A stretch of 47,800 nucleotides of DNA. Origin: Caldisericaceae bacterium (GTDB lineage Bacteria; Caldisericota; Caldisericia; Caldisericales; Caldisericaceae). The stretch lies in contig JALVXB010000011.1 in assembly GCA_027023025.1 (NCBI GenBank), positions 1-47,800 on the forward strand. The letters are read 5' to 3'. A model generated the notes under the pieces. That model worked only from the letters and a program-made list of their open reading frames with translations. It was not told the origin of the DNA and did no database searches. The number at the start of each line of letters is the position of its first letter. Within the stretch, counting starts at the first letter, position 1. A program made the translations under genes and the position numbers. Shown here in pieces: positions 1 through 15,610 of the stretch.

Positions 1-1428
1 GGAGGTAAACAATACTGCAGCACACAAACTGAGTATTATCACGAGGGCAAAACGGGAATTGTGTTTGTACATCTCTTCACTGCCTTTTATCAAAATAGAA
101 GGAGGGTTTTTAAGCATTCTTGAGACAGCTATAAATATTGCAAATGCGATAGAAACAAAAATTATTGCAAATGCGACAACAATTGTAAAAGCCGAAAGTT
201 TAAGAGGTAATGTCCAGGAAAGCGTAGTCTCTGTAAGATTAATGACGATATATCCAAGTTTAGTATACTTTTCTATGTATGGAATAGAAATTTTAACAAT
301 TACTGTAGCAGCTACAAAAGCAATGATGTAATACTTAGTTGCATTTACTGTTTTACTTAAAGCAATACCTTTGACGGTTTCTCCGAGTGCCCTTTTAATA
401 CCTATCTCCCTTCTCCTCAGCATAAGTTCTAATAATAGAAATTCGATCATAGTAAACAAGGCAACAATAATTGTAAGTATAGACACAAAAGCAAGTGTTT
501 TTATCCTACTGTATCGTATTTGTGCACCAAAGCTATACTTCATGTAATCAGAAAGAGAAGATAGAAGGTATGGATAGTCTTTGCCAAGGATTTCCTTGAT
601 TTTTCTCATTAAATAGTTATACTTGCCTTTCTGCGGAATAATGAATAAGTTGTTAAATTTATCCAGGTTAAAATTATTATTAGCGTATTTCGACTTTACA
701 TAAGGGTCGTACGGTATAAAAAATCCACCAGATAAATCGCCCATAAACGGCAGTGAAAGATTGTACTTTGGATTATTTAGTTTATCACTTAAAACACCTA
801 CTATTTTGTATTGCACCTGCTTACCTGACTCGTTAACAATAATCGACTTTCCTATGGAATTTATCGTGCCAAACAACGCCCTGCTCATCTCACTTGAAAG
901 AATGCAAACATTTTGCCCGTCTGATTTGTTAAAGTACCTCCCGTATGCAAGCAAAGGATGCAGGGCGTTAAGGAAGTCCGCAGGAATGGGCGAAGCCTTT
1001 ATCTCTTTGCTGCATACTTTTGTATACCAGAAAAACTGCTCATCTTTTACAACATTAAAAAGGTAAGCGGCTTTTATGCCTTTCAATTTTTCAATTTCTT
1101 TTATTTCATTGTTTGTAAGTGATAGTTCCAATTCCTTTTTGCTTTTCTTATAGTCAGGAGGCGGGTTATACATCTCTTCTGCCACTGCTAAAATAGTATG
1201 GTCAATTCTGTTAATATCTCTGGCAAGTTTATCTAAATCAGAAGATAGAGGGGAACTATTTCCTTCCGTAAACAAACCAATTGTTATAAAATTCGACATC
1301 GGAGCTTTATATGTATAAGATTGTAATTCACTTTTAAGACTAAGGTATTGAACTAAAGTGAAAAGTATTGTAACAGAGGATAATACAAGAACCAAGAAAA
1401 TGATAATGCCTTTATATTTATTTTTCAC
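1..1428 (-). CDS. MacB/FtsX-type ABC transporter permease (partial, 3' end outside window)
   Basis: The frame reads from a GTG at 1428 without a stop to base 1, so the C-terminus lies outside the window. The start is set by an AGGAGG six bases upstream. The product has an N-terminal membrane segment, then a roughly 270-residue periplasm/outside domain of the MacB_PCD kind, then a second membrane segment followed by the motif RRREIGIKRALGET (about 400-360 on the DNA). That motif is the hallmark of FtsX/MacB permeases, and two more membrane segments follow. Such permeases work with an ATPase in mechanotransmission or in export of peptides and lipoproteins; no ATPase gene is visible, but it may lie beyond the edge. 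The gene sits 38 bases behind a secreted cysteine-rich peptide gene on the same strand, so the two are probably one operon. Family is clear; substrate is inference. Confidence 0.8.
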   Translation of the reverse strand, partial: MKNKYKGIIIFLVLVLSSVTILFTLVQYLSLKSELQSYTYKAPMSNFITIGLFTEGNSSPLSSDLDKLARDINRIDHTILAVAEEMYNPPPDYKKSKKELELSLTNNEIKEIEKLKGIKAAYLFNVVKDEQFFWYTKVCSKEIKASPIPADFLNALHPLLAYGRYFNKSDGQNVCILSSEMSRALFGTINSIGKSIIVNESGKQVQYKIVGVLSDKLNNPKYNLSLPFMGDLSGGFFIPYDPYVKSKYANNNFNLDKFNNLFIIPQKGKYNYLMRKIKEILGKDYPYLLSSLSDYMKYSFGAQIRYSRIKTLAFVSILTIIVALFTMIEFLLLELMLRRREIGIKRALGETVKGIALSKTVNATKYYIIAFVAATVIVKISIPYIEKYTKLGYIVINLTETTLSWTLPLKLSAFTIVVAFAIIFVSIAFAIFIAVSRMLKNPPSILIKGSEEMYKHNSRFALVIILSLCAAVLFTS

Positions 1429-1466
1429 GCTCCGCCTCCTAACTCATCGTACTCAAATTAGTTAGA

Positions 1467-1724
1467 TTAGCAGCCTGCAATACAGGGGCCTACTTGATAA
1501 CCGTCACAGCTTCCCGCACCTGAGAGTCCAGGAGCCCCTATGCACATACCTGCATACGGTTCAGCACCAGGCACTCCCGGAGAAATTACGCAGGGGACGC
1601 AATACGAACACACACTTCCCGCAGGATAACAGGTTCTGGTGTATGCCGACGCTGGATTCAGCAAAGCGAGGATTATTAATCTAAAAATCACAATAACAAC
1701 ATTTGGTAATAATTTTTCACGCAT
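1467..1724 (-). CDS. Small secreted cysteine-rich peptide (85 aa), unknown function
   Basis: The open frame is longer, but the start is best placed at the ATG at 1724, because AAGGAAAGG lies just upstream. The peptide then begins MREKLLPNVVIVIF, a basic start and hydrophobic core ending in an Ala-Ser-Ala signal-peptidase-like site. The predicted mature part is about 55 residues, rich in Gly and Pro, and carries eight cysteines, with spacing C-x6-C-x2-C-x2-C-x15-C-x11-C-x7-C-x3-C. It ends on the last cysteine. Eight cysteines suit four disulfides or modified thioether/metal sites. I do not recognise the family. The ABC permease gene begins 38 bases downstream on the same strand, which suggests export of, signalling by, or immunity to this peptide. 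That role is inference only. Confidence 0.6.
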   Translation of the reverse strand: MREKLLPNVVIVIFRLIILALLNPASAYTRTCYPAGSVCSYCVPCVISPGVPGAEPYAGMCIGAPGLSGAGSCDGYQVGPCIAGC

Positions 1725-2272
1725 TGCACCTTTCCTTTTGTCTGATATATAGCATAAAATCACTTTCACAATTTTATGATAAGAACCTCTGTAAAAAATG
1801 TCAAGTATTTTTGCAAAAAAAACATAAGAATTATGAAACAGAAAGATCCAATCCTCGTAAAGCAGTGGCTGCACACTTTGCTGCACATAACGAGAAAAGC
1901 CAATTCTTTACGGATACAAACGCTCAACGCCCGATAAACAGATATGATAAATTTCGCAAAATAATGTAATTTATGAATTTTGTCTGTCGAGATAAATTAC
2001 ACTAATATTTGTGTTTTATGGAAACTTTATATTTACTCAGATAATCTCACATAAAAGTAGCTTCAGCAAGCAATTTAAAAGAATACCTGAAATTTAAGAT
2101 AGAAAAAACTTCGCCGAGTTTTTATTAAAGTGTAGATTTTGCCAAAGTGCAAAGATATTCGCAAACTTTCTGCAAGCCAATCGTCGAGCTAACCTTAAAT
2201 ATGTTTCTCGCAAAAACCTTTCAGAGTAAACAGTAAATAAGTACAAAGCACTAACTTTTCCGATACAGCCCG
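1725..2272. other. Intergenic region without a supported gene
   Basis: About 550 AT-rich bases separate the cysteine-rich peptide gene from the end of the methyltransferase gene. Short frames here have no Shine-Dalgarno site or recognisable product. One AT-rich hairpin (AAAAACT, six-base loop, AGTTTTT, 2104-2123) is visible but weak. The promoter of the peptide operon should lie at the left end of this stretch; I see no convincing -35/-10 pair. Confidence 0.5.
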
Positions 2273-3343: not shown

Positions 3344-6300
3344 CTACGGAGTACCCTTATTTATGATTCTTACATTGAGTTTACGCTTGGACGGGTCTTT
3401 GCCGTTTATCATTCCGTCAACAGGGACGATTGCCGCGACTGTGCTGCTAACAGTCGGGAATATAATCTTCGACTTCGTAGACGCAAGATAAACAGGAATT
3501 GCCTTGCTCGTCGTCGTGATGTTGATTGGCGCTCTGATTGCATTTGTTACGATGTGGGGGACTGCCGCCTCGATAATGTATCTGTATGCCCAATAATCTT
3601 TTTTTACATCCGGGAAAGGAGACCTTACAAGCGATAGTGCACCAACCTGAGGCACATCTTCTCGGTAGAGTGCCCTGTCCAGCATCGTGACAAACTCGGC
3701 TCTGCTTACCTTGTTGTTCGGGCGGAATGTGTGGTCTTTATATCCCTGCAATAGCCCTGCCTTTACTGCCGTGTAAACGAAACCGTTGAACCAGTCAGAA
3801 GGTTTTACATCCGTAAAGAGTTCTTCCTGGGGTGTTTCCGGTTTTAGCCCGCGCATTCTCACAAGAATGGTTGCTATCTCGGCACGGGTTGCAGGTTTGT
3901 TCGGGTTAAACTGTTTGCCGCTTCCAAACATAAGCTTTTCTTCGTACGCCTTTTCGATAAAGTTAAAATACCAACTGGACTTTGAAACATCCTTGAACGG
4001 CAGCAGACTGCCAGATACTTTTGCAGCATCAAAGCCAAGTGCCCTGATCAGCATCGTTGCAACCTCTGCGCGCGTTACAGTTCTCCCGGGATTAAACATA
4101 CCGTCCGGGTAGCCTATTATGAAGTTCTGGTGGTACACATCCAGCACGACTTTACAGTTCATCGCTTTGACCTGCCGCGAAAGGTTTGAAGTAGTGCCTT
4201 TTTTGTCTTTCACCGAAATCTCAACGGTATAAACACCTTCTTTTGTATATGTGTGCATAAGCGTGGTGAACTTACCGCTTTCTTTGCCCGCTACTACATT
4301 CGTCCCGTCACCAAAGTTCACGGTATAGTTATACGGAGGAACGCCGCCTGTAAATGTAAATACGAATTTAGACTGTGAGCCAATGCAGATCTTTTCAGGC
4401 GGGTTAATCGTGATATTAATTGGATTTGGTTTTTCTGGCTTTGGTTTGGGTTGGGGCGGCGGGCACGGTGCAAATATCGTGTTATAAACTGTATTTGTCG
4501 CAACTGGTTCAGGTGTCTGGTCTGAACTTATGTAAGTGGTATTTGCAATAGGAGTTGAGCCTCCAACTGTCGTCCTTACTCTCACCTTAAACGATACATG
4601 CCCTGTTTCTCCTGGATGGACTACCGGGATAATCCAGGTAATTGTTCTGCTTGCAGGGTCGTAAGTCCCGCCGTTATAGATAATTAAGGAGTTTTCGTCA
4701 AGGTTCGTATCCAGAGTATCTGTTATCTTCACATTCGTTGCGTCGAGGTTGCCTGCATTGCCGTAGTAGTTTACATAGGTAAGCCAGGTGCCCGGAGCAA
4801 CTGTGCCTTCAGGAGAAACGACCTTTCTCTGGTATACATGCTCTGGATCCCAGAATTTAGGCGCTTTTACTTCAAACTCTGCACTTGCAGAAACAGGATC
4901 CGTTTCAATTGAGTTAATCGTTACCGTATTGTGGACAATTGTTCCAAGCGGCGTGTCGTCGTTTATCTTTACAATCACCGTAATACTACCGCTCTCGCCT
5001 GCATTAAGCACAGGGATTGTCCAGGTGTTGTTGCCTGATGAAGGCTGCGGGTTTGCAAAGTAGAAAGAAACATCACTCTGGTAGGACTCAGTAATTGCCA
5101 CATTTGTTGCAGGTGCATTGCCGACATTTCTGTAATTAATTGCATATATCATCAGTTTTCCAGGCGCACCGTACTGTGGATAAACTGCTTTGTCTATCTG
5201 GAGTATCGGTTTTCCACCGACAGTTGTTTCCTGAATTGCCGGAACGCGCTGCACCTCTGCAGAATCCGCATACGCCGTATTGGTAATTACCGTTCCGTCA
5301 GGAAGCGAGCCAGCAGTCTTCACTACGAGCTGTACCACGACTGTATGGCCTTCTTCAAGAACATCCGGATTTGGCGTGTATGTCACCGTGCCGCTTCCTC
5401 CAACTGGCGGAGCATTGATCGTGCCCGTTGCACCGCTCACGAAGCTCGCAGAAACAAATGTCGTGTTTGCAGGAACTGTGTCGGTTATAACAAACTCCGT
5501 TGCGTTCATATTACCTGTATTTGTTACGGTAATAGTATATGTGATGTTGTCTCCTGCCTGCACAGGGTCAGGACTGTCCGTTTTCGTAATTTCAAGTTTC
5601 GGGCCTGAGCCTACAGTCGTTGTTTCAGAGTCAGAAACAGGAGAAACTTCGTCAGAGCGGACACTCGCTGTATTGTCAATTGTAGTTCCATTCGGAAGAG
5701 GAGAATTCGTTTTTACCACAAGCTGCACGACAGCACTGTTTCCTACATCAAGCGTTCCACTTAGCGTCCACTGGACATCGCCCGTGTTTCCTGCACCCGG
5801 GTCCGTAATCATGCCCGTTGCACCGCTCACAAAGCTCGCAGAAACAAATGTCGTGTTCGCAGGAACTGTGTCGGTTATAACGACATTATGTGCATTCATA
5901 TTGCCCGTGTTTGAAACTGTAATCTGATATGTAATATTGTCTCCTGCCTGCACAGGGTCGGTCAAATCTTTTTTGTCTATCGTAAGCACCGGTGCGGAAT
6001 GGACGGTGACATCTTTTGTTGCAGTTACGCCCTGCTGGTCTTCAGCACAAACGACTTTTGCTTCGTTGTGCACCACAGTGTTGTTGTCAGTCGGAACATC
6101 TACTTTTACGATAAGTTCCACTGCAAACTCTTCACTGGGTGCAAGCGCACCGCTCAATGTCCACTTCACTGTGCCTGTTCCACCCTGGCTGGACGCATCT
6201 ATCGTACCGCTCTTTGATATGAAGCGTGCTGAAACAAATGTCGTATGAGCAGGCACCACATCGGTAATTACGACTGTCGTTGCATCTGCATTGCCAATGT

Positions 6301-9300
6301 TTCCTGCGGTAATTGTGTACACAATATTATCGCCCGCATCTACAGTGGACTGCGAGGATGCTTTTGTAAGTGTAAGCGTTGGGGCAGAGCCTACTGTCGT
6401 TTGTGCTGTTGCCTGCTGGGTATTCGTCTGGTCAGAGTCTATCGTTACTGCATTTGTAATTACCGTGCCATTTGGAGTAGGCGACTTGATTTGAACTGTA
6501 ATCGTAATTGTATGGCGTTGCCCGTCATTTGCTACTGTGCCTATGCTCCACACATTGTTTGTGCCTGAGTCAGGTGCAGGGGTTGCAGAAACAAATGTCG
6601 TATTCTCGTCGTAACTCTCTGTTATCACGACACCTGTTGCATTCATATTTCCGTCGTTCCAGTATTCTATTGTATAGGTAATATTGTTTCCTGCTTGCGC
6701 AGAGGAAGGTGCAGTCTTTGTAATGTGGAGAGACGGTGCAGAGCCTATTGTAACATCCTTTTCTGCATCGTTAGATACGCCTTCCGCACAGGTAATGTGT
6801 GCCGTGTTTCTAATGACCGTACCGTTATCCAGAGGATTTGCAATCTTTACTTCAAAGGAAGCTGCGTGGTTAGTCCCGCCAGTCTGGAGCGTTCCGATAT
6901 CAAAGCGTATGTCGGTAACATTTGGATCGGTACCGTTACTATCTGCAACAGGCGTATAGTTCCAGGTGCTTCCGTTATCGTTTGAATAGGAAATACTTAC
7001 GCCTGATTCTGCACTTACACTGCCAACGACGAATGCTGTATTTTGAGGAATCTTGTCTGTAAGAACAGTGCTCGTTGCATTTTCGTTGCCCGTATTTGAG
7101 TAGTTGAGCGTGTATGTAATTGAGCCACCTGCCTCTGCAGGATCCGGATTTGCAGAAGCATCTTTGGTGAGGTTAAGAACCGGAGCAGAATGGACGGTTG
7201 TATTCTCGCTGTCCGTTGCAGGATTTGTCTGGTCAGAAGCAATCGTTGCAATGTCGTGCAAAACAGTACCGTTTACGACATTATTCGGAACATGTACTTT
7301 TACAGTAATAGTGCCGCTTGAATTCCCCGGAAGTCCGCTTGCAGTCCATACCCACTTATGGTTTGTAGTATCGTTTGTGAATGCAAACGAAACTGGCCCA
7401 CTTTCGCTGTGGCTGACAAGGGTTGCATCGGCTGTTCCAGAAGGGTTCAAAGGCAGGTTCAGCAAATTCGTGTAATCATCAGTTATTACGACATTTGTAG
7501 CATCTTCAGAGCCCGTATTTGCAAACTTAATTGTGTATATAACATCTGTTCCTGCTTCAACAGGGTCCGTATTATCAGACTTAGAAATGGTTAGTGCAGG
7601 AAGCGTTCCAACAGTCGTATCTTCGCTTGCACTTGCCTGAGGCGTTTCGTTGCTCGTCCCAATAACAGTATTGTGCAGAATAGTACCTGCTGCAGTATTA
7701 TCGTTTACTTTTACCGTAATTGTAATGTTCCCTGAACTTCCTGCTGGCAAATTGCCTATACTCCACACATTGTTTGTGCCTGAGTCTGGCGCAGGGGTTG
7801 CAGAAACAAATGTAACATCAGAAGGATATGTTTCCGTAATGATTACATTAGTAATGTCCATGGTGGAGTTGTTTGCGTACCTTATCGTATAGGTAAATTC
7901 GTTGCCCGCTTTAACAGGATCCTGGGAATCCGTTTTGCAAATATTTAGCTGAGGAACAGAACTTACGACATTCTGAACGACATCAGAATTTACAGACCCC
8001 ATCTGGTCTGAGTCAACAGTCGCACTATTCTGGATAATCGTATTGTCGTTAATAGGCGAATCCACCTTCACTGTAAAGTGAACGGTTACAGAACTACCTG
8101 CAGATACCGTGCCCACATTCCAGCTTACCGTGTTACTATTAACCGTCCCACCGTTATCCGCTGAAACGAAGATTGTGTACTGAGGGATGTCGTCCGTAAT
8201 TACGACATTTGTTGCATCCTGCTCTCCGCTGTTTGTCACTGTAATTGTGTATGTGATGTTTTCACCTGCACGCACCGGGTTCGGAGTGGAAGACTTCACT
8301 ATTGTAAGTATCGGTGCATGAACAGTCGTCTGTGCAGTTGCAAGCCCTGCATTGAAGGTATTGCCGCTTAAGTCTTCTCCGCTCACCTTCGCGCTGTTTT
8401 CAAGAACAGCCCCATTGCTTACATTCTTGTTTATCTTTACGGTGACTGTTTCCTGGATATTTCCGTTTGCAGGAACGGTAATGTTTGCAAATGTTACCGT
8501 GTTAGGCGCACTGAACAAGCCGCCTGACTGCCAGATAACGCCGTCGGGTAATGTATCCGTAATCGTTCCACTTACAAGGTCTTCGTTACCTGAATTTGTT
8601 ACGGTAATCGTGTATGTCAGCGTATCGCCCACATTTGCAGTTTGCAAATCAACCGTTTTTGTAATATAGATAACTGGCTTGTTAACTGTAACAAATGCTT
8701 TGCCTTCATTTGTTCCAATGTAGTTATTTGCCGCATCTCTGCCTTCTGCAATTGCCCTGTTTACATTAATCCCGTAAAGTGCGTCAGGTCCTCCCTTCGC
8801 TTTGAAGCGGACCCACAGTGTATCATTTGCACTGCCTGTTGCCCCGCCGTTATCGTCCGTTCCCTGGACCGTTGCATTCAGCGTATCCCATAGAAGCGTC
8901 GTGTCTTCTACAACAGGTTCTTTTGAAGTCCAGCTCGTTGGCGTAGAACCGTTTGTTAATGCATATTCTCCGCTTCCTGCAATATATATCCATCCCTGAG
9001 GCATAAAGTCGTGGACATTTACGCTGTGTGCATCAACGGGATTTTTATTGTCTACTTTCAGTGTAAAGGTGACCTCTTCGTTTGTTTCGACCTGAGTTTT
9101 ATCTGCGCTCTTCGTCATCTCTAACTTCGGGGAGCACACGCAAACATTTGCGCTCTCAGAAACATCGTCGAGGGCTGTTCCATTTTTGTCCGTATATGAA
9201 ACTGTTGCAGTGTCCTTATTTGCACACCCCAGGGCAGAGTCAGACGGCGTTGCCTGGAACTTCAGCCATAGCGTATCGTTTGCGCTGCCTGATGCAGTTG

Positions 9301-12300
9301 CCTGGTCGTCTGTTGGAAGCAGTGTTTCTGAAAGGTTCCAGTTAAGTGTAGTGGTACCGCTCGGGTCTGAAATCGCGCTGCCCCAATTGGAAGGCATTGC
9401 ACCGTTGTTTTTAACGAGGAATGAACTCCCTGAAACATAGTTCCAGCCGGATGGAAGCGCATCTGTAATATTGATGTTGTGCGCTTCAGCATAAGAATCG
9501 TGGTTTTCAACCTTTATCGTAAATGTTACGGCAGTCCCAACAGGAACAGTATCCACATCGGAAATTTTCTCTATGCTTAAAACAGGTTTATACACATCAA
9601 CTGACGCCTGAGCAGAACCTGAGCCGTCAGGGCCTGTTGCAGATACAGAACCGCTGTCTCTGTCAGTACCGCTTGCGGATGCCGTGTTCGTATTCTTGCC
9701 AAGTGCACCACTTGAAGAAACTTTTGCGGTGAATTCTATAACGAGCATATCCCCTGCGTCTATTTCTGCATCGTAGTTAAACGAGAGGTTCTGCCCGCTC
9801 ACAGACGGATCCGCAGTAGAGCTTCCGCCGCTCCAGTTTGCACTGGTGCTTCCTGAAACATATGTAAACCCGCTGGGCAATGTATCAGCTACATTTACGC
9901 TCAACGCATCAGCAACTTCGGATGTATTCTTAACAGTAATTTTGTAGCGCACCGTGTCACCAGGCTGAACCTGAGTAGTATTGCTCGTATTACCATTTAT
10001 AGAAACAACACTCTTGTTAATTATAAGCTCTGGTTTGTACACAAGTGCATCTGCTTCTGCATCGCTTGTGTCGATTGCGTCGCTTTCCACAAGATCGTTA
10101 CCTGCGGAATCTGTCGTTGCACTAATTTCCGCTTTGTTTGGAGCAAGTACGCCAGATGCAGAGCCTGGCGCGCTCGTCGTAACCTTTGCGTTAAACTGCA
10201 CAAATAGCGTGTCCTGATTTGCTCCGCTTGCTCCACCGTCATCGTCAGTTGCCTGGATTGTGGCATTTAAATCCCACTTTACGCCAGAACTACCAGAGGG
10301 CGTGGAGGATGCAGACGGGTCAGATGTGCTCGTCCATTGGGAAGGCACAGAGCCATTTGTAAGTGCATATTCAGAAGTATTGTTTACAATTTCAAAACCT
10401 GCTGGCAGCGTGTCAAACACATCTGTATTGTATATGTCGAGGCTGCCTTTATTTTCAACCTTTATTCTATAAGTAACAATGTCACCTGGCTGCAGTTTAA
10501 CAGGGTTTACTGCAGAATTTCCGTTTACTTCGACAATTTCTTTTGTAACCTTTATCGGAGTTGCCGTAATTTTTGTTGAAACAGTATTTGACTCCGTACC
10601 GGGAGCATTACAGCAGTTATCCGTAAATGTCGCGTGGTTTTCTATTGGGCTCGTTGCACCGCTTCCTACAAAAACTCTGAAGGAAACTGTTGTTTCTGCA
10701 CCTGCAGGGAATGCATTATCGTTTGAGCTGTCCGTACTCTGCCAGGTAATCGTATTGGTATTTGAATCAAAATTATGGCTCATCCAGGGATAAGCCGTCC
10801 CCCATCCTGGTGGCGGGCCATCGGTTATAGAAGAACTATCCACGATAAGGCCTGAGGGAAGCACATCAGTAATTGTAAAGTGCTTTGCCGCTCCATCGCC
10901 AGTATTTTTAACATGAATCATATAAAGAATGCTATCGCCAGGAGAAACATTTTGTTTGTCTGCCGTAATGTTTATTGAAACATTTGATTTTCTTACATGT
11001 GTCTGTGCAACCCAGCTGTTAGAAACAGTACCCGGCCAATGGGAATTTGAAGGATACGCGTGCTGGGAGTTTCCAGAACAGTCATAGCCAAGTAATCTTT
11101 GCCTGTTTACGGCGTTTGCATCCACCTCACTGCAATTTCCAAAATCCAACTTGAAGTCCACTTTTACAGTATCTCCGGGTGCAAGATTTACGCTGCTATT
11201 AAGAGTCCAGGTAAGTTTTGTATAATCAGTCCCGTTTACCGTTTCCGTTCCACTGGTAGGTTCTATTTGCTGAGTACTGTTATCAGGTAGCGTCACAACA
11301 GCAGAGTTTGCAACATAAGTCGTTCCAACAGGAATAAGGTCGTATATCTCAAGCGGACCGTATATCGTAGCAGCACCTTTTTTAAGCTCTCCATTGGAAA
11401 ACACAATTTCATACTGCACACTTGTATCACAGGTATCTACATTGGCTGGTACAGTTTGGGAGTAGTGCATATCCCAGGAACTGTAATGTGACCTGTTGCG
11501 AGCGTATAATGCCTGGCAAATTGGGCAATCCGCATTAAGCGTGCCGTTCCAGTAAGAAACAGTCGTCGCACTGCCCTTAAGATTGCTGCCATTAGATGCA
11601 ATGTCAGGAAGTGCGTCGCATCCAGTCCATACTTCAGAATAGTTGTATGCTTTATAATCTGTGCAGGTAGAATCTACGGTTGCAGTAATCTGTATTTTCA
11701 GAGTTTTACCCGGCGCTATTCCACTTCCAAGGTCTGCTTCTACATCGTTCCATACAAATATACCATTTGTGCTATCCGCACTATCCCAGGGGACGCTTGT
11801 CCAGCTTCCTCCATCGTAAGAATACTGAGCAGACACATAGTCAAGTGGATGCTGGTTTGCTCCCTTTAATACATCCGCAACATCTGTTTTTACAGTATCT
11901 AAGTCTCCGTTGTTCGTTATGTCAACTTCAAAAGTAACATTTGCACCAAGTTCTTTTGGGAAGTAATGCCAGTTAGAGTTATAAGAGCTACTGCCATTTA
12001 TAGAAACGACTTTCTTTACGACTAAGAGATTTGCATGTTTTAAGTCGATATTTGTTTCGTTTTCAACAGAATTTTCATTTACATCATCCACATCGCACGG
12101 TTTTGCAAATTCAAGGTGAGACTTTATCTTTTGATAGCCGTTTTTGAAAAATTCGCAGGAAGGATTTGTCTGAGAGTCGTCAGGCAATATGTTAAATGTA
12201 AGCACTATTTCATCACCAGGTGCTAAATCACTTAATTCGCTAATTTTATTATAATCCCACTTTAGCTCGTAACCGCCGCTGTAATTACCACTCGTTATAC

Positions 12301-15300
12301 TGGTAATATCAGGATCTCCTGCACTCTGTGCACTTCCGTTGTTAAATGTGTACTGCGCCGAATTTGATTCGTATTTTATGTACTTAGGTAAATCTACAAT
12401 AACAGCTGCATTGTAAAGGTCAGTCTGGCCCGGATCAGAAATAGTTATTTGCGCACTTCCGCCGCTGCACATAGAAAAAGAGGCGCTGCCAATTGTAACA
12501 AGCGCATAAGGCGTAGGTAATAAAACCTGCCCATTGTCATGATTTGATTCGCCGCATCCGCCGCAGGTATTTTCGTCTATGCAGCTTACACACCAGCGAG
12601 CGTAAGTTTCAACTGTAAGATTATTCTCGTCACAATCATTTACATCAGTTTTAAAGTAAAGCAGGATTTTCTGGGAAGGCGCAATGGTCAAATTGTTAAG
12701 TTTCCATTCCAGATCGCCATTTGCCCCGTCGCTCGGCCAGGTAATCGCAGCATCACCGTAATTATAAGTATTGCTTCCTATCTGTATATAAGCACCGTCT
12801 TTGTTAAACGCAAGTCCGCTCCCTATTTTTGTATGCAGGACGACTTCATTTGCTTCGCTGTCACCGCCGTTTGTAAAATATGCTTTCCAGTCAACCGTAT
12901 GAGTGCCGCCCCAATTGAGCTGAGGTGTAATCTTTGCGTAGAGCTTTGCACTTTGAACCAAAATAGCAGAAGAAGTGGCAGAAGCTGAATGCGTTTTTCC
13001 ACAGTTATCCTTGTAGTTTGAAGAGGCCTGAATCGCTGCATATCCAGAATCGCATCTCTTTTTAACCTGGATTGTTATATAGCCATTACCTGTTATTTCG
13101 TTCAATTGATCTGAACTCCATGTAAGCGTGTTTCCGTTTACCGTTGGCTCGCCCTTTGTACCGCTGCACCAATTGCCGTTGTTGCTGTAGGTAGTACTGT
13201 TTGGAATATACTCAAAGCCCTCGAGATTTACTGTCAGATCTGCTGCATCCACATTAAGGTTGCCGTTTTCCTTAGAAAGGCTTATTGTAACAGGATAAGT
13301 GTGGCATTTCTTCACAATATTCAAAGGATTCAACGATAAACCAAGCTCTGCCCGTTCATCAGTAACACGAATGCCCTGGTCGTAATCAGGATCACTGCTG
13401 CAACCACGAGGGAACCCGGGCACTTCCAATCTCGACCAATCTACATAACCGTGGCTTACAGCATCGTTATTGCTATTATCTGTCTGTGTAGCCCTTACCG
13501 TGTAAGAAATTTTTAATCGCGCACCGCTACTTGGAGGGCACACATGATTTTGCAACCCACCGAGATCTATCTTTAATGGATCACCAGAATTTTGAGGATA
13601 GGTAATTGCAGCATACTGCGTTGCATTAATCCATGAACCATTGCAATTTACTTCTACATCAACATTTGCTATGTCAGGATTTGTGTATTGGTTGTTTTGC
13701 AGTTCGTCGTAAAAAACGATGTGCCCACCATTCCCGTCTGTGTTATTCCAGGAAGTTGGGGCGTATACATCGCTTGTAACAAAGTCGTACTCCGTTGTAT
13801 AGCGCCTGTTGTTGTGGCTATCAGGATTGCCAGACGGATTTGTATAACTGTTCGTGTCAGTAGAACAGTCAACTTCTACGGTAGGATTATCAACATCTTT
13901 GGAAGAGTTTCTTATCGTGCTTGCAGGATCGTTTATGTAAGTACTAAACGAAGCAGAAGCACCCGGTATGTCGCATCCACAGCAATCAGTCGCACCTCCA
14001 GAAAGATTTACGGTATTTGTGTATTCATCGTGCGCATAACAGGAATCCGTCGTAACATCAAATGTAATGTGGAATGTTTGAGTTTGTCCGTCCTGAAGAG
14101 TGACATTATCCCACTCAACTGTCTGCCCGTTAATCGTTCCTCCGTTATCCGCAGATTTGGGTATAAACGGGTCAGGCAAAGTATCAGCTATATTTACCGT
14201 TTTAGAATCATCACTACAGTCTCCCTTGTGGTATGTGACAGAAATCGTGTAGGTGAGTCCTGTTTCTCCAACATCAACCGAGTCAGGGCCGGTTTTGCTT
14301 ACTTCAAAATGAGGGCCGCTGCCAGAAACAGAAATGTAGTTTATCGTAGACGGATCATAAAACGGATTTCCGCAGGGATCTGTGTATGTAGTAGTGTATT
14401 TTAAAGTGGCACTCCCGTTTCCGCTGCATGCGCCATTCGGCATCGAAACGGTAAATGTAAGATGGACCGTACTATTAGCATCGATAGTACCTGAAGGAGT
14501 CCCACCTGTGTAAGTAAACTCTCCTGTATTTGAATCATAACTCCAATCGCTCCCTATGTTTGAAATTGTGTAAAAGTCGGGGATTTTATCTATCTTTAAC
14601 TTGAAGTCTTTTGCGACGCCATCACCGCTGTTCGTAATTGGTATATCTACATCTGTAGAACCACAATAAGGAACTGATATATCAGAAACATTAAAACTAA
14701 TATGAGGGGTGGCAATAATAATCTTTACAGGTGCAACAACCTGTAGATCCTGGCACTCGCTTCCACTAATACCCCATTTAGCATGGAGCGTATTGTCTGC
14801 ATTTGCACACCATATAATCTTAGACGAAAAAGTAATTTCATAATCCGCACCCGCAGGAAGGTGCGTATATGTCCAGTTGGGATAGCCACCCGAAGAAGGA
14901 TTATTGCCGTGAAAGTCAATGTCGTTATTATACGAGCAACCTGCACCGAGGTCGTCCTGAATAACGACATTCCCAAGTGGATCGTTTCCTGTATTCTTAA
15001 TATGTATTGTCCAGGTAACAGCCTCACCCACCTTCACCTCTGTGGGAGAAACTGTTTTAGTGATCTCAAGAATTCCTGTATTTATTGCTGTCGTAGTAAC
15101 ATCCTGTGTTGCCGCATTGCAATTACCAGATGCAGGAGTTGCCGTTATAGTGATTGTATCCTGTACATTGTTGCAAAGCACATCACCCGGCGTAACACGC
15201 AGGTGGAATGTGTAACTTTCGCCTGGACTTAACAAACCTGTATCTGGCTTTCCGTCATTATTGTGATCTGAAAGAGGCGTAGAATCATCAGATTCAAAAA

Positions 15301-15571
15301 GTTCCGCACTCCACCCCGTATCTACACCACTCAGTTCAATATTTATATAATCTGAGTTGTCACAGTTGTTTTTCACCGTAACAGTATAGTCAGCTTCATG
15401 TTCCACATGGACAGATTGGCTGCTATTTGAAACAGTAATCGTAGGTGGAGATCCTATCACAACACCGTTTTTTGCAAAAGTGATGTTTGCAATGAGAGGC
15501 ATTGCGATACTCATCTGAATGATAAGCACACTTATAAGGATTGCAAAAATCCTCCTTTTTGTGTTTTTCAC
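3344..15571 (-). CDS. Giant SLH-anchored surface protein with about 25 DUF11-like repeats and a PKD domain
   Basis: The longest frame begins at a TTG at 15586, but that TTG lies inside the sequence GGAGGAG, which is the ribosome site for a GTG at 15571. I therefore start there, giving 4075 residues. A signal peptide covers about residues 1-29 (basic start, hydrophobic core, cut near NITFA). About 25 beta-sandwich repeats of 100-160 residues follow, each with the DUF11 pattern of a Lys-rich strand, an aromatic TYTIxVxNxG strand and a VxITDxxP strand. The first half (to about residue 1700) has degenerate repeats and many cysteines; the second half is regular and nearly cysteine-free. A PKD domain lies at about 3725-3800 and three SLH domains at about 3805-3970, with TRAEVATMLIRAL-type cores, then a roughly 100-residue tail holding a partial fourth SLH unit. 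SLH domains bind proteins to cell-wall polymers, so this is probably a long adhesin or outer-sheath protein. It is monocistronic. Confidence 0.92.
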   Translation of the reverse strand: MKNTKRRIFAILISVLIIQMSIAMPLIANITFAKNGVVIGSPPTITVSNSSQSVHVEHEADYTVTVKNNCDNSDYINIELSGVDTGWSAELFESDDSTPLSDHNNDGKPDTGLLSPGESYTFHLRVTPGDVLCNNVQDTITITATPASGNCNAATQDVTTTAINTGILEITKTVSPTEVKVGEAVTWTIHIKNTGNDPLGNVVIQDDLGAGCSYNNDIDFHGNNPSSGGYPNWTYTHLPAGADYEITFSSKIIWCANADNTLHAKWGISGSECQDLQVVAPVKIIIATPHISFNVSDISVPYCGSTDVDIPITNSGDGVAKDFKLKIDKIPDFYTISNIGSDWSYDSNTGEFTYTGGTPSGTIDANSTVHLTFTVSMPNGACSGNGSATLKYTTTYTDPCGNPFYDPSTINYISVSGSGPHFEVSKTGPDSVDVGETGLTYTISVTYHKGDCSDDSKTVNIADTLPDPFIPKSADNGGTINGQTVEWDNVTLQDGQTQTFHITFDVTTDSCYAHDEYTNTVNLSGGATDCCGCDIPGASASFSTYINDPASTIRNSSKDVDNPTVEVDCSTDTNSYTNPSGNPDSHNNRRYTTEYDFVTSDVYAPTSWNNTDGNGGHIVFYDELQNNQYTNPDIANVDVEVNCNGSWINATQYAAITYPQNSGDPLKIDLGGLQNHVCPPSSGARLKISYTVRATQTDNSNNDAVSHGYVDWSRLEVPGFPRGCSSDPDYDQGIRVTDERAELGLSLNPLNIVKKCHTYPVTISLSKENGNLNVDAADLTVNLEGFEYIPNSTTYSNNGNWCSGTKGEPTVNGNTLTWSSDQLNEITGNGYITIQVKKRCDSGYAAIQASSNYKDNCGKTHSASATSSAILVQSAKLYAKITPQLNWGGTHTVDWKAYFTNGGDSEANEVVLHTKIGSGLAFNKDGAYIQIGSNTYNYGDAAITWPSDGANGDLEWKLNNLTIAPSQKILLYFKTDVNDCDENNLTVETYARWCVSCIDENTCGGCGESNHDNGQVLLPTPYALVTIGSASFSMCSGGSAQITISDPGQTDLYNAAVIVDLPKYIKYESNSAQYTFNNGSAQSAGDPDITSITSGNYSGGYELKWDYNKISELSDLAPGDEIVLTFNILPDDSQTNPSCEFFKNGYQKIKSHLEFAKPCDVDDVNENSVENETNIDLKHANLLVVKKVVSINGSSSYNSNWHYFPKELGANVTFEVDITNNGDLDTVKTDVADVLKGANQHPLDYVSAQYSYDGGSWTSVPWDSADSTNGIFVWNDVEADLGSGIAPGKTLKIQITATVDSTCTDYKAYNYSEVWTGCDALPDIASNGSNLKGSATTVSYWNGTLNADCPICQALYARNRSHYSSWDMHYSQTVPANVDTCDTSVQYEIVFSNGELKKGAATIYGPLEIYDLIPVGTTYVANSAVVTLPDNSTQQIEPTSGTETVNGTDYTKLTWTLNSSVNLAPGDTVKVDFKLDFGNCSEVDANAVNRQRLLGYDCSGNSQHAYPSNSHWPGTVSNSWVAQTHVRKSNVSINITADKQNVSPGDSILYMIHVKNTGDGAAKHFTITDVLPSGLIVDSSSITDGPPPGWGTAYPWMSHNFDSNTNTITWQSTDSSNDNAFPAGAETTVSFRVFVGSGATSPIENHATFTDNCCNAPGTESNTVSTKITATPIKVTKEIVEVNGNSAVNPVKLQPGDIVTYRIKVENKGSLDIYNTDVFDTLPAGFEIVNNTSEYALTNGSVPSQWTSTSDPSASSTPSGSSGVKWDLNATIQATDDDGGASGANQDTLFVQFNAKVTTSAPGSASGVLAPNKAEISATTDSAGNDLVESDAIDTSDAEADALVYKPELIINKSVVSINGNTSNTTQVQPGDTVRYKITVKNTSEVADALSVNVADTLPSGFTYVSGSTSANWSGGSSTADPSVSGQNLSFNYDAEIDAGDMLVIEFTAKVSSSGALGKNTNTASASGTDRDSGSVSATGPDGSGSAQASVDVYKPVLSIEKISDVDTVPVGTAVTFTIKVENHDSYAEAHNINITDALPSGWNYVSGSSFLVKNNGAMPSNWGSAISDPSGTTTLNWNLSETLLPTDDQATASGSANDTLWLKFQATPSDSALGCANKDTATVSYTDKNGTALDDVSESANVCVCSPKLEMTKSADKTQVETNEEVTFTLKVDNKNPVDAHSVNVHDFMPQGWIYIAGSGEYALTNGSTPTSWTSKEPVVEDTTLLWDTLNATVQGTDDNGGATGSANDTLWVRFKAKGGPDALYGINVNRAIAEGRDAANNYIGTNEGKAFVTVNKPVIYITKTVDLQTANVGDTLTYTITVTNSGNEDLVSGTITDTLPDGVIWQSGGLFSAPNTVTFANITVPANGNIQETVTVKINKNVSNGAVLENSAKVSGEDLSGNTFNAGLATAQTTVHAPILTIVKSSTPNPVRAGENITYTITVTNSGEQDATNVVITDDIPQYTIFVSADNGGTVNSNTVSWNVGTVSAGSSVTVHFTVKVDSPINDNTIIQNSATVDSDQMGSVNSDVVQNVVSSVPQLNICKTDSQDPVKAGNEFTYTIRYANNSTMDITNVIITETYPSDVTFVSATPAPDSGTNNVWSIGNLPAGSSGNITITVKVNDNTAAGTILHNTVIGTSNETPQASASEDTTVGTLPALTISKSDNTDPVEAGTDVIYTIKFANTGSEDATNVVITDDYTNLLNLPLNPSGTADATLVSHSESGPVSFAFTNDTTNHKWVWTASGLPGNSSGTITVKVHVPNNVVNGTVLHDIATIASDQTNPATDSENTTVHSAPVLNLTKDASANPDPAEAGGSITYTLNYSNTGNENATSTVLTDKIPQNTAFVVGSVSAESGVSISYSNDNGSTWNYTPVADSNGTDPNVTDIRFDIGTLQTGGTNHAASFEVKIANPLDNGTVIRNTAHITCAEGVSNDAEKDVTIGSAPSLHITKTAPSSAQAGNNITYTIEYWNDGNMNATGVVITESYDENTTFVSATPAPDSGTNNVWSIGTVANDGQRHTITITVQIKSPTPNGTVITNAVTIDSDQTNTQQATAQTTVGSAPTLTLTKASSQSTVDAGDNIVYTITAGNIGNADATTVVITDVVPAHTTFVSARFISKSGTIDASSQGGTGTVKWTLSGALAPSEEFAVELIVKVDVPTDNNTVVHNEAKVVCAEDQQGVTATKDVTVHSAPVLTIDKKDLTDPVQAGDNITYQITVSNTGNMNAHNVVITDTVPANTTFVSASFVSGATGMITDPGAGNTGDVQWTLSGTLDVGNSAVVQLVVKTNSPLPNGTTIDNTASVRSDEVSPVSDSETTTVGSGPKLEITKTDSPDPVQAGDNITYTITVTNTGNMNATEFVITDTVPANTTFVSASFVSGATGTINAPPVGGSGTVTYTPNPDVLEEGHTVVVQLVVKTAGSLPDGTVITNTAYADSAEVQRVPAIQETTVGGKPILQIDKAVYPQYGAPGKLMIYAINYRNVGNAPATNVAITESYQSDVSFYFANPQPSSGNNTWTIPVLNAGESGSITVIVKINDDTPLGTIVHNTVTINSIETDPVSASAEFEVKAPKFWDPEHVYQRKVVSPEGTVAPGTWLTYVNYYGNAGNLDATNVKITDTLDTNLDENSLIIYNGGTYDPASRTITWIIPVVHPGETGHVSFKVRVRTTVGGSTPIANTTYISSDQTPEPVATNTVYNTIFAPCPPPQPKPKPEKPNPINITINPPEKICIGSQSKFVFTFTGGVPPYNYTVNFGDGTNVVAGKESGKFTTLMHTYTKEGVYTVEISVKDKKGTTSNLSRQVKAMNCKVVLDVYHQNFIIGYPDGMFNPGRTVTRAEVATMLIRALGFDAAKVSGSLLPFKDVSKSSWYFNFIEKAYEEKLMFGSGKQFNPNKPATRAEIATILVRMRGLKPETPQEELFTDVKPSDWFNGFVYTAVKAGLLQGYKDHTFRPNNKVSRAEFVTMLDRALYREDVPQVGALSLVRSPFPDVKKDYWAYRYIIEAAVPHIVTNAIRAPINITTTSKAIPVYLASTKSKIIFPTVSSTVAAIVPVDGMINGKDPSKRKLNVRIINKGTP
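5422..5959 (-). repeat. Near-identical internal direct repeat, 390-bp period, in the giant gene
   Basis: Bases 5422-5491 and 5812-5881 match at 68 of 70 positions. The same 390-base offset continues to matching ends at 5541-5569 and 5931-5959. The offset is exactly 130 codons, one DUF11 unit, so the copies are in frame. This indicates recent duplication or gene conversion between neighbouring repeats. Confidence 0.85.
6538..7813 (-). repeat. Second pair of near-identical internal repeats in the giant gene
   Basis: Bases 6538-6598 and 7753-7813 match at 58 of 61 positions, 1215 bases (405 codons) apart and in frame. They encode the same strand-and-loop region of two DUF11 units separated by two others, which suggests gene conversion across non-adjacent repeats. 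Confidence 0.8.
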
Positions 15572-15610
15572 TTGTTTCTCCTCCAATCTTTATTAATATA
15601 AGTTTATAGT

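Follow-up and report, generated by a model that had tools for sequence, protein, structure and literature searches.

At the edge of a contig from a Caldisericaceae genome, a short gene for a cysteine-rich and apparently secreted peptide stands directly before a gene for a MacB/FtsX-type permease, which raises the question of whether the two form a functional pair and, if so, what this pair does. The window, by which we mean the whole stretch of 47,800 nucleotides analysed here (GenBank assembly GCA_027023025.1, contig JALVXB010000011.1, positions 1 to 47,800 of the forward strand), starts at the first base of contig C11 (G000:C11:1), that is, at a contig end. A first-pass annotation, made from the letters alone, had taken the pair for an exported ribosomal peptide with its transport or immunity system, and had suggested that a MacB ATPase and a radical-SAM or thiol-modifying gene be sought beyond the left edge.

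A peptide gene with its own expression signals

The open reading frame agrees with the earlier description of a secreted precursor of 85 residues that contains eight cysteines and ends in one. The gene lies on the minus strand (1467..1724, stop included), from an ATG at 1724 to a last codon that ends at 1470, with the stop at 1467-1469, and its translation reads MREKLLPNVVIVIFRLIILALLNPASA followed by YTRTCYPAGSVCSYCVPCVISPGVPGAEPYAGMCIGAPGLSGAGSCDGYQVGPCIAGC. Residues 1-27 (1644..1724, minus strand) form a predicted Sec-type signal peptide, with a charged N-terminus, a hydrophobic core and an ASA box, after which cleavage was placed by eye from the translation, with no signal-peptide predictor. 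The predicted mature peptide of 58 residues (1470..1643, minus strand) holds the eight cysteines, and its C-terminus, C-x7-C-x3-C-COOH, is common to five relatives, according to alignments with them, in the form C-x(7-9)-C-x(2-3)-C. The gene call draws on the reading frame, on the cysteine spacing and on the position before homologous permeases in five other genomes.

Upstream of the start codon we found a ribosome-binding region, AGGAAAGG (1729..1736, minus strand), and a sigma-70-type promoter, TTGACA-17-TATCAT (1776..1804, minus strand), which was located by alignment with the locus of a congener (L073), where both hexamers are identical and the 17-base spacer differs. Downstream, 38 bases separate the peptide stop from the GTG start of the permease at 1428, on the same strand, as had been noted before, and this gap includes the Shine-Dalgarno sequence of the permease, AGGAGG (1435..1440, minus strand). 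The peptide, which had been described as belonging to no familiar family, matched nothing in Pfam, NCBIfam, PADLOC or PHROGs, nothing in plasmids and phages by tblastn, and nothing in a scan of 84,980 genomes with its sequence alone. Its AF2 model has a pLDDT of 45, with no confident fold.

Probable continuation of the operon on a second contig

The permease gene (1..1428, minus strand) is cut by the contig end after 475 codons, about 57% of its length counted from the N-terminus, and was classified from its Pfam matches and from full-length homologues, which have 818-872 residues with two MacB units in one chain. Its matches to MacB_PCD (2e-11) and FtsX (4.6e-9) both exceed the Pfam cut-offs, and these, together with an adjacent ATPase, place the system in the MacB superfamily (type VII ABC). 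That ATPase was found on contig C24 of the same genome (G000; 1.66 Mb, 99.9% complete), past the left edge, where the first-pass annotation had suggested looking for one. This contig encodes, in order, the last 43 residues of a permease (3-134), which show 74% identity to the C-terminus of the nearest homologue, a LolD/MacB-type ATPase, 84% identical to that of genome G009 (219-917), and a DUF4352 lipoprotein (942-1421). We infer that C11 and C24 join into one locus, in support of which the congener carries the same flanks on its contigs C6 and C45, which overlap briefly within the end of the permease. The assembly would have broken here because the 3' end of the permease recurs, at 96-97% identity, in three further permeases encoded on contig C1. 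Between C11 and C24, some 310 codons of the permease are missing from the assembly; since C24 holds the permease end, the ATPase and the lipoprotein, the operon of the window is complete save for this gap. By sequence, the operon encodes a peptide that is secreted and able to form disulfides, together with a duplicated permease of the MacB type, the ATPase of this permease and a lipoprotein with DUF4352. Among the operon genes there is no open reading frame resembling a MacA-type adaptor, as judged by position rather than by a dedicated profile search.

The peptide-permease pair recurs, and decays, in other Caldisericota

The proposal that the same gene pair be looked for in related genomes was rewarding: homologues of the locus are present in five further genomes of Caldisericota, namely, G001 (same genus), G002, G006, G018 and G035. 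In all five, the permease is immediately preceded by a secreted open reading frame that has 6-10 cysteines and the C-terminal motif C-x(7-9)-C-x(2-3)-C(-P). Intact copies are therefore present in six of the 49 genomes of the class, each representing a single species, and in all six intact single-locus copies the peptide precedes the permease. The full operon can be read without interruption in G006, G018 and G035 only, as contig ends cut the permease or the downstream genes in G002 and G001. Elsewhere among the 49 genomes no peptide homologue rose above noise. Peptide genes standing without the permease in most relatives would have spoken against the pairing, and no such copy was found; nor was any close intact relative of the window peptide.

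Two further genomes retain remnants. In G009 (L069, 8468-11060), only the final 16 codons of the peptide gene are left, and the permease next to it, 54-59% identical to that of the window, is frame-broken, with a second permease, the ATPase and the lipoprotein intact downstream. The remnant, GGSYDGSAVGSCTAGC-stop, lies upstream of the permease and aligns with the window peptide, which ends in AGSCDGYQVGPCIAGC-stop. Read from the sequence, this locus appears to record peptide and permease decaying jointly. In G010 (L074, 6496-6690), some 40 codons from the start of a permease like that of the window are fused near an ATPase fragment, and this scar is flanked by the same conserved neighbours as the cassette in G006. 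Apart from these copies, G018 encodes another duplicated MacB permease, accompanied by an ATPase of its own (L071, 5135-9534), near response-regulator and kinase-like genes and with no cysteine peptide, which is possibly a sensing-type relative.

Kinship of the window peptide

The cysteines of the window peptide are spaced 6-2-2-15-11-7-3, and those of the peptide from G018 (L071), which belongs to another family of the class, 6-2-3-14-11-7-3; the spacing in G035 is a close variant, and the window spacing was matched to those of the peptides in L071 and L070. When cysteines were placed at random with the span fixed, one of 500,000 placements came as close as the window does to G018 (p about 2e-6, to be discounted somewhat because the comparison was picked after the sequences had been seen). 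A generalised eight-cysteine pattern with a terminal cysteine finds exactly three open reading frames in 681 kb of locus sequence, all directly before this permease. In leave-one-out searches with an HMM built from the other peptides, a weak test with only two to five divergent sequences behind the profile, the window peptide scored within the range of its shuffled versions. Given that the profile match does not exceed these shuffled controls, residue homology rests on cysteine spacing and position. The window peptide thus shares with the others secretion, the C-x(7-9)-C-x(2-3)-C-(P)-COOH end and a place directly before this permease clade, and lacks residue-level profile similarity to them. 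It is probably homologous to the other cassette peptides by scaffold and position, at a level where residue-by-residue homology is not demonstrable, and this reading gains direct support from the alignment of the G009 remnant with the window C-terminus.

We consider it highly improbable that the open reading frame is no gene, or that the peptides before different permeases are unrelated to each other. The missing residue-level match and the lack of a confident AF2 fold would suit such a coincidence; the occurrence of a ribosome-binding site and a signal sequence, the agreement in cysteine spacing and terminal motif, the same position in six genomes and the same C-terminus left behind in G009 argue against it. 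Because the spacing pattern is unique to three permease-linked reading frames, and the -35/-10 pair is kept in the congener, the window reading frame is more than chance.

A tandem thioredoxin in the sister cassettes

In G001, G006, G018 and G035 the peptide gene is preceded by a gene for a membrane-anchored tandem thioredoxin of 355-392 residues (Pfam Redoxin and Thioredoxin_2). Its CGSC motif is invariant in the first domain, and a CxxC motif is present in the second domain in three of the four, having been lost in G018. The AF2 model (pLDDT 83) has a ResA/TlpA/CcmG-like fold, for which the best PDB match is 4nmu, a Bacillus thiol-disulfide oxidoreductase (E 4e-8), followed by Etrx2 and ResA, with CcmG also among the matches. 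The protein shares with these oxidoreductases the fold, the membrane anchor and the CGSC motif, and differs from them by its two tandem thioredoxin domains and by always adjoining the peptide gene. It is encoded in four of the 49 genomes of the class, each time inside this operon, and when 84,980 species genomes were searched with an alignment of the thioredoxins, the same four Caldisericota loci alone were recovered, by means of two short patterns that distant forms may escape. The thiol-modifying gene that had been anticipated does therefore exist in four relatives; it stands upstream of the peptide, however, and the window genome has no such gene, nor any remnant of one in the 550-base upstream spacer.

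Exchange of cassettes between fixed flanks

Comparison with the congener G001 by blastn and alignment places a breakpoint at 1771. From there to 5620 the window is 91.4% identical to G001, and below 1771 the cassette content is unrelated, so that identity stops some 47 bases upstream of the start codon of the peptide, immediately downstream of the promoter. Between the flanks, the window has the peptide and its permease, whereas G001 has the thioredoxin, a peptide unlike that of the window and a permease with about 27% identity to the window permease; on the far side, identity returns to about 91% across the permease end, the ATPase, the lipoprotein and the gene that follows. One slot thus holds two different cassettes in two species of one genus. 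Adjoining the cassette, the window also encodes a surface protein of 4080 residues (3344-15586, minus strand) with repeated DUF11-like domains and, judged from sequence, C-terminal SLH-like repeats, which is found beside the cassette in the congener as well (L073).

The window genome contains, in addition, an array of three tandem duplicated MacB permeases of 849, 853 and 839 residues (L068, G000:C1:18000-37900; 6063-13824, minus strand), with near-identical 3' ends and with neither a peptide gene nor an ATPase gene adjoining them. The middle permease shares 95% identity with the cassette permease of G001. Among these array permeases, nucleotide identity is 30-57% over most of their length, rises to as much as 75% near the joint, and reaches 94-100% over the last 130-150 codons; in G009, the final 350 bases of two permeases show no difference. 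As the 3' ends are homogenised while the remainder is unalike, the locus is a cassette-exchange locus, where whole versions of peptide and permease are swapped and the homogenised permease 3' end forms the downstream joint. Between array permease b and the permease of G001, dN/dS is 0.16-0.17, indicating purifying selection, and dS is 0.16. This is below the dS of the flanking genes (0.20-0.43), which suggests that the permease was exchanged after the species split. Next to the array, a row of genes for a Ser/Thr kinase-like protein, a PP2C-like protein and a trypsin-like protease with a C-terminal FHA domain (L068, 273-5483, minus strand) possibly forms a phospho-regulated protease unit.

As a tentative proposal, which we judge somewhat more likely to fail than to hold, recombination would drive the diversification of peptide and immunity: the peptide and the variable part of the permease would be swapped as a cassette, with the promoter fixed on one side and the 3' end of the permease, the ATPase and the lipoprotein fixed on the other, and the peptide-less permeases would serve as a reservoir of immunity alleles, in a phylum from which no bacteriocins have been described.

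Comparison with known systems

Several described systems resemble this one. The operon of the lactococcin 972 group comprises a Sec-type small bacteriocin, a large FtsX-like membrane protein and an ATPase, and its layout (TIGR01653/TIGR01654/TIGR03608) is like that of the cassette. The cassette ATPases match TIGR03608 at 1e-59 to 1e-64 and stay below its cut-off (199-215 of 255 bits), as does the G035 permease with TIGR01654 (0.002; 16.6 of 189 bits); the peptide has no NCBIfam match (TIGR01653), and lactococcin 972 has no cysteines (PMC8538875), for which reasons we rejected membership of this group. The SDP-YknWXYZ system of Bacillus likewise includes a small Sec-exported disulfide peptide and a MacB-type permease with a separate ATPase that shields the producer from outside the membrane (PMC5985334, PMC4887032), and AS-48EFGH is a further precedent alongside it. 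However, SDP has one disulfide and the window peptide eight cysteines, YknZ is single-domain and works with the adaptor YknX, whereas the cassette permease is duplicated (818-872 residues) and has no adaptor, and the cassette pump shares its operon with the peptide. With ADOP, YbbP and BceB, the cassette permease has in common two MacB_PCD-FtsX units per chain and a separate NBD, and differs in its link to a secreted cysteine peptide. Its best NCBIfam match is ADOP (TIGR03434; 2e-31, 109 of 622 bits), and scores of 39-109 of the 622 bits of the curated cut-off leave it outside that family. Finally, MacAB-TolC acts on enterotoxin STII in the same sequence of Sec, thioredoxin-fold oxidation and MacB; the cassette differs in its separate ATPase and duplicated permease, and it falls outside the tripartite exporters, with no MacA adaptor in the operon and neither a TolC-type duct nor Omp85 in the genome. 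The Caldisericota system would thus work in the manner of SDP-YknXYZ or the lactococcin 972 group, and would follow STII-MacAB in its oxidation logic, but by the tests made it is a member of none of them: it combines peptides of a new family with a duplicated MacB permease, in a cassette that can be exchanged. In the literature searched we found no description of a secreted antagonistic peptide in Caldisericota, and no parallel to NVEALA-type peptides.

Functional interpretation

Our best reading, for which the arguments on either side weigh about equally, is that of a disulfide-rich antagonistic peptide with a MacB transporter for immunity or clearance. The peptide would be exported by Sec, fold outside the cell with three to four disulfides, with help from the tandem thioredoxin in those cassettes that encode it, and act against related cells. 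On the outer face of the membrane of the producer, the permease-ATPase would bind its cognate peptide and remove it by mechanotransmission, which would confer immunity and perhaps also bring about release. The specificities of peptide and permease would have to change in step, which would explain why the two are swapped as a unit, and immunity to other alleles would explain why peptide-less permeases are kept under purifying selection. Toxin-immunity dynamics fit because peptide and permease are co-exchanged and permeases without peptides are retained; cassette swapping also fits other variable surface systems. We infer the antagonistic activity from sequence, and this reading is tempered by the window copy having no thioredoxin gene. 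The operon copies contain no dedicated immunity gene besides the transporter, no maturase and no regulator. Of the initial interpretation, the secreted cysteine peptide paired with a MacB-type transporter stands; neither the radical-SAM gene expected with it nor any other RiPP maturase occurs in any copy, and export is less favoured than immunity or clearance. A RiPP cluster was rejected in view of the Sec-type signal and of the operons read, which have no radical-SAM, lanthionine or cyclodehydratase enzyme.

It is rather improbable, in our view, that the transporter instead drives the Sec-made, thioredoxin-oxidised peptide across an outer envelope, as MacAB-TolC does with STII. The gene logic of Sec peptide, thioredoxin-fold oxidant and MacB is the same (PMC5985334), and an outer-membrane-like layer was observed by microscopy in C. 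exile, in which BamA is reported to be absent, and the envelope type of Caldisericum is disputed (PMC4104836); other work reports no LPS genes and leaves the envelope type open (PMC5007114, PMC7203096). The 99.9%-complete window genome yielded no Omp85 and no match to the OEP/TolC family (PF02321), with positive controls, which weakens TolC-dependent export and agrees with the BamA absence reported for C. exile (PMC4104836). This gene content also fits a Caldisericota envelope that is unresolved in type or has a single membrane. Further against export, no MacA/HlyD-type adaptor gene occurs in the operons read, and the duplicated permease with a separate ATPase is closer to the adaptor-free BceB/YbbP type than to MacB (PMC5985334). 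MacB-type transporters work on the outer face and do not move substrate across the inner membrane, a step for which the peptide, having a Sec-type signal, does not need the ABC system. With such a signal, and with TolC and Omp85 missing from the genome, immunity or clearance is favoured over TolC-type export, which we regard as unlikely; given the disputed envelope type, export may nevertheless proceed through some other outer layer.

We also think it rather improbable that the peptide is no weapon, being instead a small redox, metal-binding or structural partner of a transporter-lipoprotein complex for envelope maintenance, such as LolCDE-like lipoprotein extraction, with the thioredoxin as its redox partner. 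The ATPase does score best against LolD, below the cut-off, a lipoprotein is part of the operon, and CxxC pairs occur in both peptide and thioredoxin; nevertheless, the patchy spread (six intact copies in 49 genomes), the decay in relatives, the allelic exchange and the strong divergence of the peptides are unlike a housekeeping part. Very unlikely, in our view, is a role in signalling, with the peptide as a pheromone or as a ligand sensed by the permease. Pheromone-receptor pairs, too, are known to undergo allele exchange. MacB-family permeases do serve as peptide sensors, as BceAB does for a two-component system (PMC5985334), but no histidine kinase or regulator gene adjoins any cassette copy read, except near the peptide-less second permease of G018.

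With the cassette peptide, MacB-family permeases acquire a likely natural and genetically linked substrate, whereas for most of the family the substrate is unknown. Because peptide and permease are exchanged while the flanks stay constant, it would moreover be possible to map which region of the permease recognises which peptide. As these peptides come from a group known for thermophiles, disulfide-stabilised, heat-stable antimicrobials may be a testable prospect.
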